From contig JARKRC010000058.1 of NCBI GenBank assembly GCA_029974595.1, positions 1 to 64,000 on the forward strand: a stretch of DNA of 64,000 nucleotides, read 5' to 3'. Under the pieces are notes generated by a model that had not been told where the DNA came from, made no database searches, and saw nothing but the letters and a program-made list of their open reading frames with translations. The stretch is from Ereboglobus sp. (GTDB taxonomy: Bacteria > Verrucomicrobiota > Verrucomicrobiia > Opitutales > Opitutaceae). The position numbers and the translations under genes are program-made. Each line of letters begins with the position of its first letter. Position 1 is the first letter of the stretch. Shown here in pieces: positions 43,001-63,957 of this stretch.

Positions 43001-45361
43001 TTAGAGCGGTCGCTTGAGCGCTGTGATGTGTTCGTCGACTGTCGCGGGGTCATCGAAATACTCCGCGAGGAGGGGGCGGATTTCGCCGTCAATAATTTCG
43101 TTATACCACGCCGTGTCGCGCAGGCAGGCCTTCTCCTCGGCGTCGCTCGCATCCGAGTCATCGTCATCGGTGACTGGCGTCTCAAGCTGGCAGAAAAAGC
43201 TGTGGCCGATCTGACATCCGCGACCGAGGCTTTTTTCCTGCGTGATGGTGTCGTTTAGCGCACCGATGCGCTTGCGGATTTTTTCGACAAGCTCGCCGAG
43301 GGCTCCGTGTTTTACGAGCCATGTTTTGAATGCGGGCGTTTCAAAGGCGGGTGCGAGTGTTTCAAACGCGAAGCGGCGGCGCAGCGCGTAATCCATCATG
43401 GCGAGTGAGCGGTCGGCTGTGTTCATCGTGCCGATGATGTGGAGATTGGGTGGAATATAAAAGCGGGCGCTGTCTTTTTCCGGGTCGTGATAGGCGAGTT
43501 GAACCGCGTATTCGGGCGAGCGTTTGTCCGCCTCGATGAGCATGAGCAATTCGCCGAATATTTTGGCGAGATTTCCGCGATTGATTTCATCAATGATAAA
43601 CACGTAGGCGTTGTCGGGGTCGTTGCGCGCCTTGGTGACGAATTCGAGAAAGATGCCATTTTTGCGGGCGAAGCCGCCTTTGCCGTCGGGGCGGTAGCCT
43701 TGGACAAAATCCTCGTAGCTGTAATTGGGATGAAACTGCACCATTTCGATGCGATTGCTGCTTTTCTCTCCCATGTGCACGTAGGCGATGCGGCGGGCCA
43801 CAAAGGTTTTTCCGACACCGGGCGGCCCTTGAAGGACGAGACATTTTTTGCGGTCAAGGCGGTCAATAATAGTCTCCAGCGCGGATTGTTCCATGAACAG
43901 GTCTTCCATCGCGTGAGCGATCGGATAAGGGTCCGGTCGCGGCGGCGGCGGCGTGATTTTATCGTCTTCAAGCAACTTGCGGAACAGGTCGATCCGTTGC
44001 GGATTTTTGATGCGAGTGAGCGTTTTCAGGGGGAGTATTTTCGCGTCATCGGGTAGTTGCTTCTCAATGATAGTTGTCCATTTGACATCGCGAACATGGC
44101 GATGGGTTTTGCGTGACGGGTCGTAGCGATAGTCGCCTGTCACGGTGCCAACGCCCAACAACGTGCTCCTGCCTTGTTTCACGAAAATGACGTCACCGGT
44201 TTTTATTCCATTCAAAAAGCCCCAGCAGGTTTTGGCGTTAAATATAGGTTCTCTTTCGCCCTTCCAAATCGTTTTCATTTTTTCGAGCATGGTGTCAACG
44301 TCCGCATAGGCGTTGAAATCACCGAGCTCGTCCCAGCCGAGGGACATGATGCCAAGTTTGCGACACTCGGCCCAGTAGCGTGCATTTTCGCCCGGTGCAT
44401 AGAGCCAGTATTGAGGGCCATCAGCATCGAGCGGCAACGTGACGGCGCCAATTTTTTCCTCTTGTTTCATTTCGTAGAGCCAACTGAAAAACTGATCCAG
44501 TTCCAGATTGAGCGGCAGGTTCGTTTGCTGCCTGACAATTTGCTTATAAGCCTCGGCAAGCGGGCGTGTGGCTTCATGAAAAGCACGCATGCGTCCCACA
44601 CGATCGCCGGTGTCGGCGGAGGGGATGGAAATATCAAGATAATCCGCGCCGAATTTATCGCGTGCGTTATAAAACATGAACTGATCTGGAAAGAGATAAC
44701 CGACGATTTCACTGACGGCGGATTCCCCGAAGCCTAGCAGCCTGTATTGCTTGTCGCTGCTGAACCGACGAATGCGTTCCGTCGTTTCATCGGAGCCGTG
44801 TGCCAGATAGGTGAAACTGTCGCGGTAATGCTCGATGCTGTGATTCGGATGACCGGTAGCGCGTTTTTTGGCCAGCGCGTGTGAGCCGAAGCAGTGCAAA
44901 TGCTCGCCAAACTCCTGGACTTTCGGCCAGTCCAGTTTGGCGAGGTTATCTGGTGCGAAAAATTTTTTGAAGAACTCATAGTTCCTGCGAAGGAATGTGG
45001 ACTTCTGGAACCAATCGGCTGAGACTTCGGCAAAGGCTTCGAGCTCGGCTTGGGTTTTTTCGTTCGTGGTCAAGCCCGAGTGCGATGATGCGTCTGCGTC
45101 GGCCCCGGCCGTAATGCGTCTGCCGATGCCGTTGAATCGTCTCCAGTATGAATGCTGGGTTGAAAGCGTGTTCCCTCTCATGGTGTCGCCGAAATGGGCG
45201 ACGATCTCGGCGCGGGAAACAGGCGAGCCTTTTTGAGCGGTGAGTTGCTCGCAGGCGTCCCAGATTTTTCGAGTGAGTGTGCCTTCCCTGGGTTTGCGCA
45301 CGCCATTTTGTTCGATGCGAGCGGAGTTGTGGGGAGTGGGTTGAGCTTCGGGATTTGTCAT
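43001..45361 (-). CDS. mcrB: McrB-type AAA+ restriction NTPase with N-terminal EVE/PUA-like specificity region
   Basis: Walker A GPPGVGKTFVARR, Walker B VFIIDEINRGNLAKIFGELLMLIE, NTADRSLAMMDYALRRRF; EVE-like YWLYAPGENARYWAECRKLGIMSLGWDELGD…GDVIFVKQGRSTLLGVGTVTGDY. Confidence 0.88.
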   Translation of the reverse strand: MTNPEAQPTPHNSARIEQNGVRKPREGTLTRKIWDACEQLTAQKGSPVSRAEIVAHFGDTMRGNTLSTQHSYWRRFNGIGRRITAGADADASSHSGLTTNEKTQAELEAFAEVSADWFQKSTFLRRNYEFFKKFFAPDNLAKLDWPKVQEFGEHLHCFGSHALAKKRATGHPNHSIEHYRDSFTYLAHGSDETTERIRRFSSDKQYRLLGFGESAVSEIVGYLFPDQFMFYNARDKFGADYLDISIPSADTGDRVGRMRAFHEATRPLAEAYKQIVRQQTNLPLNLELDQFFSWLYEMKQEEKIGAVTLPLDADGPQYWLYAPGENARYWAECRKLGIMSLGWDELGDFNAYADVDTMLEKMKTIWKGEREPIFNAKTCWGFLNGIKTGDVIFVKQGRSTLLGVGTVTGDYRYDPSRKTHRHVRDVKWTTIIEKQLPDDAKILPLKTLTRIKNPQRIDLFRKLLEDDKITPPPPRPDPYPIAHAMEDLFMEQSALETIIDRLDRKKCLVLQGPPGVGKTFVARRIAYVHMGEKSSNRIEMVQFHPNYSYEDFVQGYRPDGKGGFARKNGIFLEFVTKARNDPDNAYVFIIDEINRGNLAKIFGELLMLIEADKRSPEYAVQLAYHDPEKDSARFYIPPNLHIIGTMNTADRSLAMMDYALRRRFAFETLAPAFETPAFKTWLVKHGALGELVEKIRKRIGALNDTITQEKSLGRGCQIGHSFFCQLETPVTDDDDSDASDAEEKACLRDTAWYNEIIDGEIRPLLAEYFDDPATVDEHITALKRPL

Positions 45362-46045: not shown

Positions 46046-46095
46046 TTCCCAAGGCATGAGGAAAGGGCCATGGCCCTTTCCTCATGCCTTGGGAA
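46046..46095. repeat. 50-bp perfect palindrome in transposase leader
   Basis: TTCCCAAGGCATGAGGAAAGGGCCA|TGGCCCTTTCCTCATGCCTTGGGAA read directly. Confidence 0.95.
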
Positions 46096-46107
46096 AATCG
46101 CTCTTCT

Positions 46108-47268
46108 ATGAAACAACGTTTGGATTTTGTAACTTTGGCCCGTTCGCATCGCGGTGGGTTTTTCGCCGAGCTTTGCCGGCGTTTTGGCATCAGCCGAAAG
46201 ACCGGCTACAAGTGGCTCTCGCGCTTTGGAAATGAAGGTCAAAGCGGCCTGATGGATCGTTCCCGAAGACCCCATCGCCAACACCGTCGCACCGCCGAAG
46301 CGACCGAACGGCTGGTGCTTGATGAGCGTTCCTTGCACCCGGGCAACGGCCCTTGCAAGCTCCAGCGCAGGCTTCAAAACAAGGGGCATCTTGTTTTGCC
46401 CAGCGCGACCACCTTCGCGCGCATCCTCAAACGCCATGGCTTCATCAACCCGCTTGAGTCGCAAAAACATGTTGCTTTCCGGCGTTTCGAACGCCTCGGG
46501 CCAAACGAGTTGTGGCAAATGGACTTCAAGGGCCATTTTGCCCTCGCCTCGGGCCAGCGCTGCCATCCGCTCACCTTGCTCGACGATCACTCCCGTTTTC
46601 TTCTGTGCCTGCAAGCCTGCGCCGATGAAACTGGCCCGACGGTGCGCGAGCACTTGCTCGCGCTTTTCCATCTCTACGGCCTTCCCATGCAGATACTCTG
46701 TGACAATGGCTCGCCTTGGGGCTGCCCGACTAGCGAATACACCTCCCTGGCCTTCTGGCTCCTGCGCCAAGGCGTGCATGTTATCCACGGCCGCCCTTTG
46801 CATCCCCAGACCCAGGGCAAGGACGAACGCTTCCATCGCACCCTCAAAGACGAACTGCTTTGCCGCCATGACTGGCCCTCCATGGATGTCACCCAAAAAC
46901 GCTTCGACGCGTTTCGCGAAGATTACAATCATCACCGCCCCCATCAGGCTCTCGACATGCTTGCTCCCATCTCCCGTTACCGCGTGAGCGCAAGGCGCTT
47001 TGTCGGCGAAAACCCACCCCTTGAATACGACTGCTCCGAGATAACCCGCACTGTCAAATCCAAGGGCGAAATCACCTTTCGAAATCGCTTTTATTACATC
47101 GGCCGTGCCTTCCACTCCCACACCCTGGCCCTGCGTCCTTACAAGCGTGACGGCCTCTACTCGGTATGCCTCGGTTCCATCGCCCTTGGCCTCATTGATC
47201 TGTGCGAACCGACTTCAAAACCAAAGGGCCATTACTTGCCCTTGCTCGCTCATCCTCACTCCCTTTGA
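46108..47268 (+). CDS. IS481-family transposase (integrase core)
   Basis: HTH ‘RRFGISRKTGYKWLSRFGNEGQSGLMDRSRRP’, DDE core ‘WQMDFKGHFAL…LLDDHSR…HPQTQGKDERFHRTLKDELL’. Alternative start at 46084 lies in the palindrome. Confidence 0.93.
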   Translation: MKQRLDFVTLARSHRGGFFAELCRRFGISRKTGYKWLSRFGNEGQSGLMDRSRRPHRQHRRTAEATERLVLDERSLHPGNGPCKLQRRLQNKGHLVLPSATTFARILKRHGFINPLESQKHVAFRRFERLGPNELWQMDFKGHFALASGQRCHPLTLLDDHSRFLLCLQACADETGPTVREHLLALFHLYGLPMQILCDNGSPWGCPTSEYTSLAFWLLRQGVHVIHGRPLHPQTQGKDERFHRTLKDELLCRHDWPSMDVTQKRFDAFREDYNHHRPHQALDMLAPISRYRVSARRFVGENPPLEYDCSEITRTVKSKGEITFRNRFYYIGRAFHSHTLALRPYKRDGLYSVCLGSIALGLIDLCEPTSKPKGHYLPLLAHPHSL

Positions 47269-47564: not shown

Positions 47565-48380
47565 TTACGCGCCACCGGCGACGGCGGCGCTCTTCGGCTT
47601 GAAGGTCTGGCGGAAGGTCGCCGCGATGTAGTCGCGGTTCATGCGGGCGATGAAATCGTGGCTGATGAGCTTCGGGCACGCGGCGCTGCATTCGTATTGG
47701 TTGGTGCAACTGCCGAAGCCGAGTTCGTCCATCTTCGCCACCATCGCGAGGACGCGCTGGTCACGCTCGGGCTGGCCTTGCGGGAGGAGGCTGAACTGGC
47801 TGACTTTCGCAGCGACGAAGAGCATGGCGCTGGCGTTTTTGCAGGCCGCGACACACGCGCCGCAGCCGATGCATTGGGCGGCGTCCATCGCGAGGTCGGC
47901 GGCATCCTTTGCCACGGGAATTGCATTGGCGTCCTGCGGGGCGCCGGTGCGGACGCTGATGAAGCCGCCGGCTTGCTGGATCTTGTCGAACGCGCTGCGA
48001 TCGGTGATGAGATCCTTGATGACGGGGAAGGGTTTTGCGCGGAAGGGTTCCACGGTGATGACCGCGCCGTCGGCAAAGCTGCGCATGTAGGTCTGACAGG
48101 TGGCGACGCCTTTGTGCGGGCCGTGAGGCTTGCCGTCGATGACGAGATTGCAGGTGCCGCAGATGCCTTCGCGGCAGTCGTGCGCGAATGCGATCGGCTC
48201 CTCGCCGGCGTGGGTGAGTTCCTCGTTCACCACGTCGAGCATCTCGAAGAACGACATGTTCGGGTTGCAGTTGCTGGCTTTGTATTCAACGAACTTGCCG
48301 GGTTGGCTGGGGCCGGCCTGGCGCCAGACGCGCAAGGTGACGTTGATGTTTTTTTCGGTGGTGTGGTTTTCGGCGACCAT
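47565..48380 (-). CDS. sdhB: Succinate dehydrogenase/fumarate reductase iron-sulfur subunit
   Basis: [49 protein letters not shown]. Confidence 0.95.
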
Positions 48381-48389
48381 GGGATGTGA

Positions 48390-48871
48390 GATTTACGATT
48401 TACAAATTACGATTTACGATTGAAGGAGCTTCGGCGGGGAGCGCCGGTGTTTTTTTAGGAATAGTTTTGCTGGCGGGTGCGGGTGGTGCGGAGGGCGGAG
48501 ACGATGATGGAGAGGATTTCAGTGGCTTCTTGCATGAGGGATTCGAGACGTTTTTGCGGAAACGTCCCGGATTCGGCGAGGAGTTCCATCCAGTAGCGGG
48601 TTTCGTCGCATTCTTCCTCCACGATCTTGAGTTTGTTCACGAAATCCGAAGTCGATTTGGCGCGGCAGGCGGCGCGATAATTCGCGCCGACCGATGTGCC
48701 GGAGCGGAGCATCTGGCGTCCAAGAATGTCGGGAACGCCGCCCTTGGGCGGCGCGTTCACGGCCTTGATGACACGCAGGGCGAAGGCCTTGGTGCGCTTG
48801 AGCATTTCTTCCTTGGTCATCGTGTCACTCCTTTCCGGCATTCGTAAATCGTAATTCGTAAATCGTAAATC
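48390..48871 (-). mobile_element. Putative heptad-TIR element carrying a four-helix-bundle gene, between sdhA and sdhB
   Basis: 32-nt inverted termini (48390-48421 vs 48840-48871, 30/32 match), each (GATTTAC)-type heptads; fills the sdhA-sdhB gap. Confidence 0.7.
48455..48820 (-). CDS. Four-helix-bundle protein (23S rRNA intervening-sequence protein / S23 family)
   Basis: ILGRQMLRSGTSVGANYRAACRAKSTSDFVNKLKIVEEECDETRYWMELL; SD-like AAAGGAGTG before ATG at 48820. Confidence 0.88.
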   Translation of the reverse strand: MTKEEMLKRTKAFALRVIKAVNAPPKGGVPDILGRQMLRSGTSVGANYRAACRAKSTSDFVNKLKIVEEECDETRYWMELLAESGTFPQKRLESLMQEATEILSIIVSALRTTRTRQQNYS

Positions 48872-48880
48872 CGCGTGTTC

Positions 48881-50806
<1,926 letters not shown>

Positions 50807-60376: not shown

Positions 60377-60562
60377 AAAGTAGGAAGTAGGAATTAGGAA
60401 TTAAGAAGTGCCAAGTCCGCGCGTTTCACGCGCAGAATCAAAAAAACGCCACGACCAACTCACAACTTCACATCAAGCCGTCACACCCATCTGCGCGCGA
60501 AGCGCGCGCTGTTGGGGCTGCAAGCCCCCACTTCTTAATTCATAATTCTTACTTCTTAATTT
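60377..60562 (+). repeat. ORF-less heptad-TIR element between atpF and atpH
   Basis: Inverted termini 60377-60410 and 60529-60562 (30/34), heptad AAGTAGG/AATTAGG/AATTAAG units; interior holds two hairpins. Confidence 0.7.
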
Positions 60563-62565: not shown

Positions 62566-62577
62566 TCACATACATTC

Positions 62578-62609
62578 CGACTTAAATCGACTTAAGTCGA
62601 TCTAAGTCG
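62578..62609. repeat. 10-bp-period near-palindrome in atpA-atpG gap
   Basis: CGACTTAAATCGACTTAAGTCGATCTAAGTCG; self-complementary apart from one mismatched pair. Confidence 0.8.
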
Positions 62610-62621
62610 ACTCCCGCACCG

Positions 62622-63518: not shown

Positions 63519-63957
63519 AAAGTAGGAAGTAGAAATTAGGAATTAGAAAGTCATGAGCACTGAAAAAACAGACCTGAAAGATCGCACCTTCCTTTATGCA
63601 AGGCGCATCATTCGTCTGTTCTCGGCGCTCTCGAAAACCGACGTTGCGCGGATATTGGGAAAACAATTTCTCCGCTCGGGCACCTCGGTCGGCGCCAATT
63701 ATCGTGAGGCCTTTCGTTCCCGCTCGCGTGCCGAGTTCCTTGCAAAAACAGGCGACAGCCTGAAAGAAATCGAAGAGACCGCCTACTGGCTCGAACTCCT
63801 TGAAGCCGAAAACATCGTCAAGCCAGCGCGCCTCGCCCCTCTCATTGATGAAACCCGCCAACTCATCGCCATTTTCGCCACCATTACCAAGACAACCAAA
63901 ACGCGCAGTCTGTCAGTCTTACCCACTTCCTAATTCCTAATTTCTACTTCCTACTTT
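63519..63957 (+). mobile_element. Putative heptad-TIR element carrying a four-helix-bundle gene, between atpG and atpD
   Basis: 33-nt inverted termini (63519-63551 vs 63925-63957, 32/33 match), heptads AAGTAGG/AAGTAGA/AATTAGG/AATTAGA; starts 4 nt after the atpG stop and ends 3 nt before atpD ATG. Confidence 0.75.
63553..63933 (+). CDS. Four-helix-bundle protein (23S rRNA intervening-sequence protein / S23 family)
   Basis: ILGKQFLRSGTSVGANYREAFRSRSRAEFLAKTGDSLKEIEETAYWLELL, same core as 48455-48820. Confidence 0.88.
   Translation: MSTEKTDLKDRTFLYARRIIRLFSALSKTDVARILGKQFLRSGTSVGANYREAFRSRSRAEFLAKTGDSLKEIEETAYWLELLEAENIVKPARLAPLIDETRQLIAIFATITKTTKTRSLSVLPTS

Follow-up and report, generated by a model that had tools for sequence, protein, structure and literature searches.

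Among the described systems, the 23S rRNA IVS of Coxiella and Leptospira resemble the elements reported here in carrying an ORF of the S23 family, in their length of 400-500 nt and in their terminal inverted repeats; the S23-bearing IVS of Coxiella has a 28-bp terminal stem, with GACAGAT heptads preceding the ORF (PMC4990558). However, those inserts reside within 23S rRNA and are excised by RNase III, whereas the elements described here occupy operon junctions (e.g., sdhA/sdhB), also occur as copies devoid of an ORF and carry family-specific heptads. We surmise that the S23-bearing 23S rRNA IVS is likely a special case of S23 heptad elements. The system that these elements work most like is REPIN-RAYT (PMC3116915), with its repeat-flanked gene, dispersed intergenic inverted doublets, co-evolution of gene and repeat, and singlets that look like remnants; they are not members of it, as they have no tyrosine transposase. 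The RAYT is such a transposase and REPs are palindromic, vs. a pentamer-type four-helix bundle and a 31-nt heptad array in the S23 elements. Intergenic heptads with frequent convergent inverted pairs are also known as the GGGAATC repeats of Xanthomonas and the GGGGA(C/T)T repeats of Nostoc, those of Xanthomonas comprising mostly four units, with 89% in intergenic positions and with 70 convergent inverted pairs in X. campestris (PMC4692102). Unlike the S23 elements, they were published as G-quadruplex repeats with no protein partner, and the S23 link given below comes from one gammaproteobacterium.

Avd, a protein of DGRs (4dwl, 8ub7), is similar to S23 in fold, as recognized by structure search, and joins a reverse transcriptase in a complex of protein and nucleic acid; the sdh element, in contrast, harbors the S23 ORF only, with no reverse transcriptase and no TR/VR repeats. 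IS elements and MITEs likewise combine inverted ends with gene-bearing and ORF-less forms, but the S23 elements have no known transposase between their ends and no detectable target-site duplication, and the ends themselves are tandem arrays. In the open-access literature covered by our search, a link between S23 ORFs and heptad arms was not found beyond the Coxiella IVS. To our knowledge, structures have been solved for products of S23 or 'four helix bundle' genes, with their function not known.

The insert between sdhA and sdhB

In the window, i.e., the whole 64,000-nt stretch of DNA analyzed, an element of 482 nt (48390-48871) is located on the minus strand between sdhA upstream (48881-50806; FAD_binding_2 / Succ_DH_flav_C) and sdhB downstream (47565-48380; Fer2_3 / Fer4), at a distance of 9 nt from either gene, in agreement with the ~9 nt estimated in a sequence-only reading of this DNA. 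With the ORF as reference, the 5' arm (48840-48871, minus strand; GATTTACGATTTACGAATTACGATTTACGAAT) is a heptad array of ~4.5 units, comprising five GAWT cores at 7-nt spacing, and the 3' arm (48390-48421, minus strand; GATTTACGATTTACAAATTACGATTTACGATT on the plus strand) is its inverted counterpart, the arm unit being GATTTAC/GAATTAC. The 30/32 match of the arms that had been claimed around the S23/IVP ORF was re-found at these positions, as identity of GATTTACGATTTACAAATTACGATTTACGATT to GATTTACGATTTACGAATTACGATTTACGAAT, the reverse complement of 48840-48871, and it is above chance as judged by the inverted-arm score of the locus (z=15.8 vs. dinucleotide shuffles). A comparison of the element with Rfam yielded no credible match, the only hits being animal miRNA models far under their gathering scores. 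Between sdhB and the gene of an AAA (AAA_5) protein (43001-45361) lies an IS481 family transposase gene (46084-47268).

The ORF between the arms (48455-48820, minus strand) matches, in profile searches, PF05635 of the S23 / 23S_rRNA_IVP family (E=2.8e-18; 66.5 bits vs. a cut-off of 33.8) and TIGR02436 'four helix bundle protein' (87.4 bits vs. a cut-off of 24). PF05635 is the only domain detected in it, leaving it without a tyrosine transposase of the RAYT kind. The longest open form extends from 48455 to 48841 on the minus strand with its start at 48841, but inspection revealed an AAGGAG preceding the ATG at 48820, so the protein probably has 121 residues, and with this start the 5' arm falls outside of the ORF. 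The ORF is oriented as sdhC-sdhA-sdhB are, all on the minus strand.

A single-sequence AF2 model of the protein (pLDDT 71) had its best structure matches in 2rld (E=2.4e-6) and 2gsc (E=7e-4), the latter an S23 structure from X. campestris; five chains are present in both of these relatives of known structure, and the Xcc0516 structure has been described as a homopentamer (PMC4990558). Where computable, dN/dS between related S23 ORFs was 0.03-0.13, and zero in two nearly identical pairs; the S23 protein is kept under purifying selection. Among 200 sequences, residues Q43, R46, S50, N54 and E80 (numbering of the window ORF) are 95-100% conserved and E57 is 95% conserved; the sdh protein, like some others of its clade, has Ala in place of E57. 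As judged by conservation, the set Q43/R46/S50/N54/E80 could form an active site or else a network of buried polar residues. A recognized nuclease motif is absent from S23, which counts against the mechanism proposed below. A reverse transcriptase acting in trans, a candidate suggested by the Avd fold, was rejected, with RVT_1 finding no match in the S23-rich complete genomes G001 and G005; a reverse transcriptase is therefore not required for maintenance.

Heptad arms and their cognate proteins across genomes

The window harbors another S23 element at the atpG-atpD junction (63519-63957, plus strand) with AAGTAGG/AATTAGG arms, as had been noted before, and profile searches of this genome yielded nine PF05635 loci. 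Seven of these nine sit between inverted arrays of ~7-nt period, all with different units: GGAGTCA (nuo), GATTAAG, GATTTAC (sdh), GAAGGGT (before cdsA), AAGTAGG (atp), ATTTTCG (ABC transporter) and AAATCCC (arn), the neighboring genes being named by inspection of flanking translations. In each of the seven elements, the arm matches its own partner and not the arms of the others. At locus L008 (G000:C25:386263-389481), the S23-like ORF is longer and divergent and lacks a heptad pair beside it; upstream of it is a stem-loop with a repeat period near 10 (CCACTAAGACCTATAAGACC). Palindromic AATCGACTTAAGTCGATCTAAGTCGA repeats were seen in the window at 62575-62612 (junction before atpG) and around a weak S23-like match (L009), and this motif is also present at a site of G001 where G003 carries a heptad pair.

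PF05635 was found in 297 of 387 Verrucomicrobiota genomes sampled (77%). The sequence-only reading had left the two copies of the window open to coincidence should other S23 genes of Verrucomicrobiota show no such ends against shuffled controls; in 140 loci of this phylum, arms were the rule. Within 110 nt of the ORF, the best period was 7 in 98/140 loci upstream and likewise in 98/140 downstream, vs. a flat spread of best periods inside the S23 ORFs as control. The inverted-repeat score exceeded all 60 shuffles at 108 of 143 loci and the maximum of 140 control windows shifted 350 nt outward at 56 of 143. In 80 loci from other phyla (Bacillota, Pseudomonadota, Bacteroidota, Planctomycetota, Acidobacteriota, Spirochaetota, Chloroflexota, candidate phyla and others), the best period was 7 upstream in 61 and downstream in 69. 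Heptad arms are a hallmark of S23 genes, not a feature of two coincidental copies. Of 134 loci with a score for both sides, 118 had both neighbors co-oriented with the S23 ORF, the coding strand being judged by GC at third codon positions.

The arms also have a fixed length: a method with no preset length gave a mode of 31 nt for S23 arms, and 46 of 78 arrays found in the 1.26 Mb of this genome that were scanned measure 30-33 nt, with the peak at 31 nt. This length corresponds to four heptads plus three bases, or five short cores (3-4 nt) at 7-nt spacing, as exemplified by GATT-tac-GATT-tac-GAAT-tac-GATT-tac-GAAT.

The heptad unit varies between S23 subfamilies but follows S23 protein identity. 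Units matched at 6/7 bases or better in 100% of locus pairs with protein identity >90%, in 79% at 75-90%, 55% at 65-75%, 18% at 55-65% and 1-3% below 55%. The earlier claim that architecture, rather than primary sequence, is conserved is supported, with a refinement: heptad arms are general around S23 genes, and the unit sequence is also kept within a subfamily. The link between protein and unit owes part of its strength to orthology at a single site, the nuo junction having GGAGTCA in several genera. The AGTAGCG subfamily, however, is found at three unrelated junctions, namely gyrB-gyrA (L023, L081, L098), gatA-gatB (L026, L109) and before pheT (L076, L105), with proteins ~61-81% identical between the three sites; the arms and their ORF have thus moved jointly. 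A further locus at the nuo junction (L097) has up to 79% protein identity and yet AGAATCC arms (unit match 4/7). As both of its arms are AGAATCC, paired arms change jointly, and as some loci have switched units within a clade in this manner, the unit code is not rigid.

An independent case comes from the gammaproteobacteria, where arrays of three GGGAATC units were present in 1 of 369 genomes sampled (G791). The single S23 gene of this genome is located between accB and accC, has GGGAATC arms on both sides and is apparently frameshifted. The Xanthomonas GGGAATC repeats fit the S23 heptad-element family.

Copies without an ORF and polymorphic junctions

The earlier reading can be extended in that heptad arms also stand without an ORF, in many dispersed copies. 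In 1.26 Mb of this genome (31% of 4.07 Mb), 78 period-7 arrays were found, most of them outside of S23 elements, vs. zero in a shuffled contig; at a score of at least 13, lag 7 gave 65 arrays and any other lag at most 16. About a dozen of the 78 belong to S23 elements, and nearly all of the remainder are of resident S23 types (GATTTAC, ATTTTCG, GAAGGGT, AAGTAGG/AATTAAG, AAATCCC) or of types belonging to S23 genes of relatives (GGAATGC in G001, AGTAGCG, and AATTACT in G002). The arrays form 25 inverted pairs, the ORF-less ones spanning 81-253 nt. One of these is located in the window at the atpF-atpH junction (60377-60562, no strand assigned), with inverted AAGTAGG/AATTAAG arms of the type of the atp S23 element, and has 117 nt of interior in common with C37:65357 (85%). 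Another ORF-less element (C25:244025) has 47 nt of interior at 87% identity in common with the S23 element of its type. Variant units also keep their order between a dispersed copy and S23 arms, AAATCCCAAATCCCAATTTCCAAATCCCAAA being present in the arn element as well as at C22:20517. Target-site duplication gave no signal in 25 elements (permutation test not significant), and none of the empty sites was clean to the base, as congeners at 95% identity diverge too strongly beside several junctions, e.g., where atpF and atpH end. A parS-like palindrome (TGTTCCACGTGGAACA) adjoins a GGAATGC heptad array (L263:15900-16000, C25:95.9 kb). In genome G005, most arrays share the type of the resident S23 gene (L117). 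Genome G006, with no detectable S23, has arrays of the L117 type and others, apparently relics, and such arrays therefore last, or move, even where no S23 gene resides.

Empty sdhA-sdhB junctions, which the sequence-only reading had suggested looking for in relatives, do exist: the junction is a plain 52 nt in two members of the same genus (G001, G003) and empty in most other relatives compared. In G004 and G018 it holds same-clade S23 elements whose arms are GAWTTAC-like, in G019 and G026 apparent arm remnants, and in G024 (L048) an ORF-less inverted GTAGCGA heptad pair of ~100 nt. A different ORF occupies the junction in G006, G029 and G036 (L043, L057, L062), with the ORF6N domain (PF10543) found in L057, the one tested. 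At these three loci, GAGGATATCCCAAATTGTGACATCCTC-like palindromes are repeated near and inside the gene; this insert is possibly a parallel repeat-bearing element.

The atp junctions differ likewise. At atpG-atpD, where this genome has its S23 element, G003 has an ORF-less pair of GGCTGAA type and G001 a degenerate one; at atpF-atpH, vs. the AAGTAGG pair here, G003 has none and G001 an AATAATG pair. G001 and G003 are 95.4% identical over 151 kb and still differ in heptad elements at several junctions. Only G001 of the two has, in its atpH-atpA junction, a complete S23 element flanked by AATAATG arms (PF05635 E=6.6e-13), and cognate AATAATG ORF-less pairs sit at both neighboring atp junctions. 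Read from these sequence comparisons, the differences in presence and absence point to recent element activity. Right beside the polymorphic insertions, the final codons of both atpF and atpH diverge strongly between the two genomes, in surroundings that are ~95% identical (L379, L374). Adjoining sequence, here the ends of these two genes, may be replaced upon insertion. As a point against the mobile-element reading, repeated occupation of the same junctions might in part be local conversion rather than fresh insertion. Small inverted inserts free of heptads, with GTAGGGGCGCACCTTGCGTGCGCCC pairs and AACCACGGATTACACGGATTA pairs, are also polymorphic between G001 and G003 (G003 contig C1; L374, L384, L385).

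A proposed mechanism and its rivals

We consider it likely that these loci represent a family of mobile elements, similar in manner to REPIN-RAYT, in which S23 recognizes its cognate heptad arrays. As judged by sequence comparison, mobility and cognate pairing are well supported; trans-mobilization, DNA binding and strand-transfer chemistry are steps that we infer. An element would consist of two inverted arrays of ~31 nt with five cores of 3-4 nt each, with S23 between them in the gene-bearing copy. The S23 protein, a relative of known homopentamers, would recognize the heptad array of its own subfamily, perhaps with one pentamer on each five-core arm and one core per protomer, a tentative step, suggested by length and chain numbers, that we deem somewhat doubtful. 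By bringing both arms together, S23 would promote copying of arm-bounded units into operon junctions, including ORF-less derivatives in trans, with strand-transfer chemistry that may be its own or borrowed from the host, while the gene-bearing copy would mostly stay at one site, passed on vertically and kept by purifying selection. A bolder proposal, which we regard as rather unlikely, is that S23 is a new mobility enzyme whose pentameric ring reads the five cores, with Q43, R46, S50, N54 and E80 (plus E57 in most) as active site, and that it drives pan-bacterial elements behind much of the excess in 7-base repeats long noted in bacterial genomes.

The co-orientation of the ORF with both neighbors (118/134 loci) and the RNase III excision of the Coxiella IVS, with its terminal stem and heptads before the ORF, would both be expected if the element acted at the RNA level, with the arms forming an mRNA stem that is cut by RNase III to isolate the S23 message and with complementarity selected on the RNA. 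The mismatches between arms nevertheless make this a decidedly improbable account: in the sense transcript, 57 of those in the cores are of G.U type vs. 99 of A.C type (p=0.001), a bias that remains after thinning by protein identity (34 vs. 54, p=0.04) and is the opposite of stem selection, which should favor G.U-compatible mismatches. To us, this bias suggests that selection acts on the DNA repeat and, to some degree, against mRNA structure close to start codons; it is a modest effect, with other causes such as base-composition preferences possible. Selection on an RNA stem also leaves the 7-nt period, the link between protein and unit and the dispersed ORF-less pairs unexplained, although RNA processing at the arms may occur as a by-product.

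There are two further explanations. In one, S23 is passenger cargo, and the arms around it are those of an ordinary transposon or MITE family that some unrelated transposase mobilizes, e.g., an IS481 or Y1 enzyme. We find this very unlikely, given that the unit follows the S23 protein, that arms accompany S23 in other phyla too, that a genome has several array types, most with their own S23, and that target-site duplication was not detected among the 25 elements, although inverted terminal arms with ORF-less derivatives are typical of a MITE family and the IS481 transposase gene at 46084-47268 is nearby. In the other, to which we give almost no credence, arrays arise by replication slippage and their inverted partners by template switching, with immobile repeats merely tolerated by S23. 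The sharp peak of array length at 31 nt, where a broad spread would be expected, the unit order conserved between dispersed copies and S23 arms and the interiors common to copies all argue against it; heptads are, however, over-represented in bacterial genomes, for which slippage has been proposed (PMC4692102), and congeners do have different units at one junction. The reading that we favor remains that of mobile elements with a cognate S23 protein.

This reading joins three unexplained facts, namely the S23 ORFs in 23S rRNA inserts, the excess of heptads in bacteria and the GGGAATC pairs of Xanthomonas. S23 heptad elements would represent a mobile-element architecture that lacks the defining features of known classes, pointing to overlooked mobile DNA. 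If the pentamer reads five cores, pairs of unit and protein would be natural training data for a code of nucleic-acid recognition. For the S23 genes, common in Verrucomicrobiota and present in many other phyla, the finding would provide a testable function, namely recognition of the cognate heptad array.
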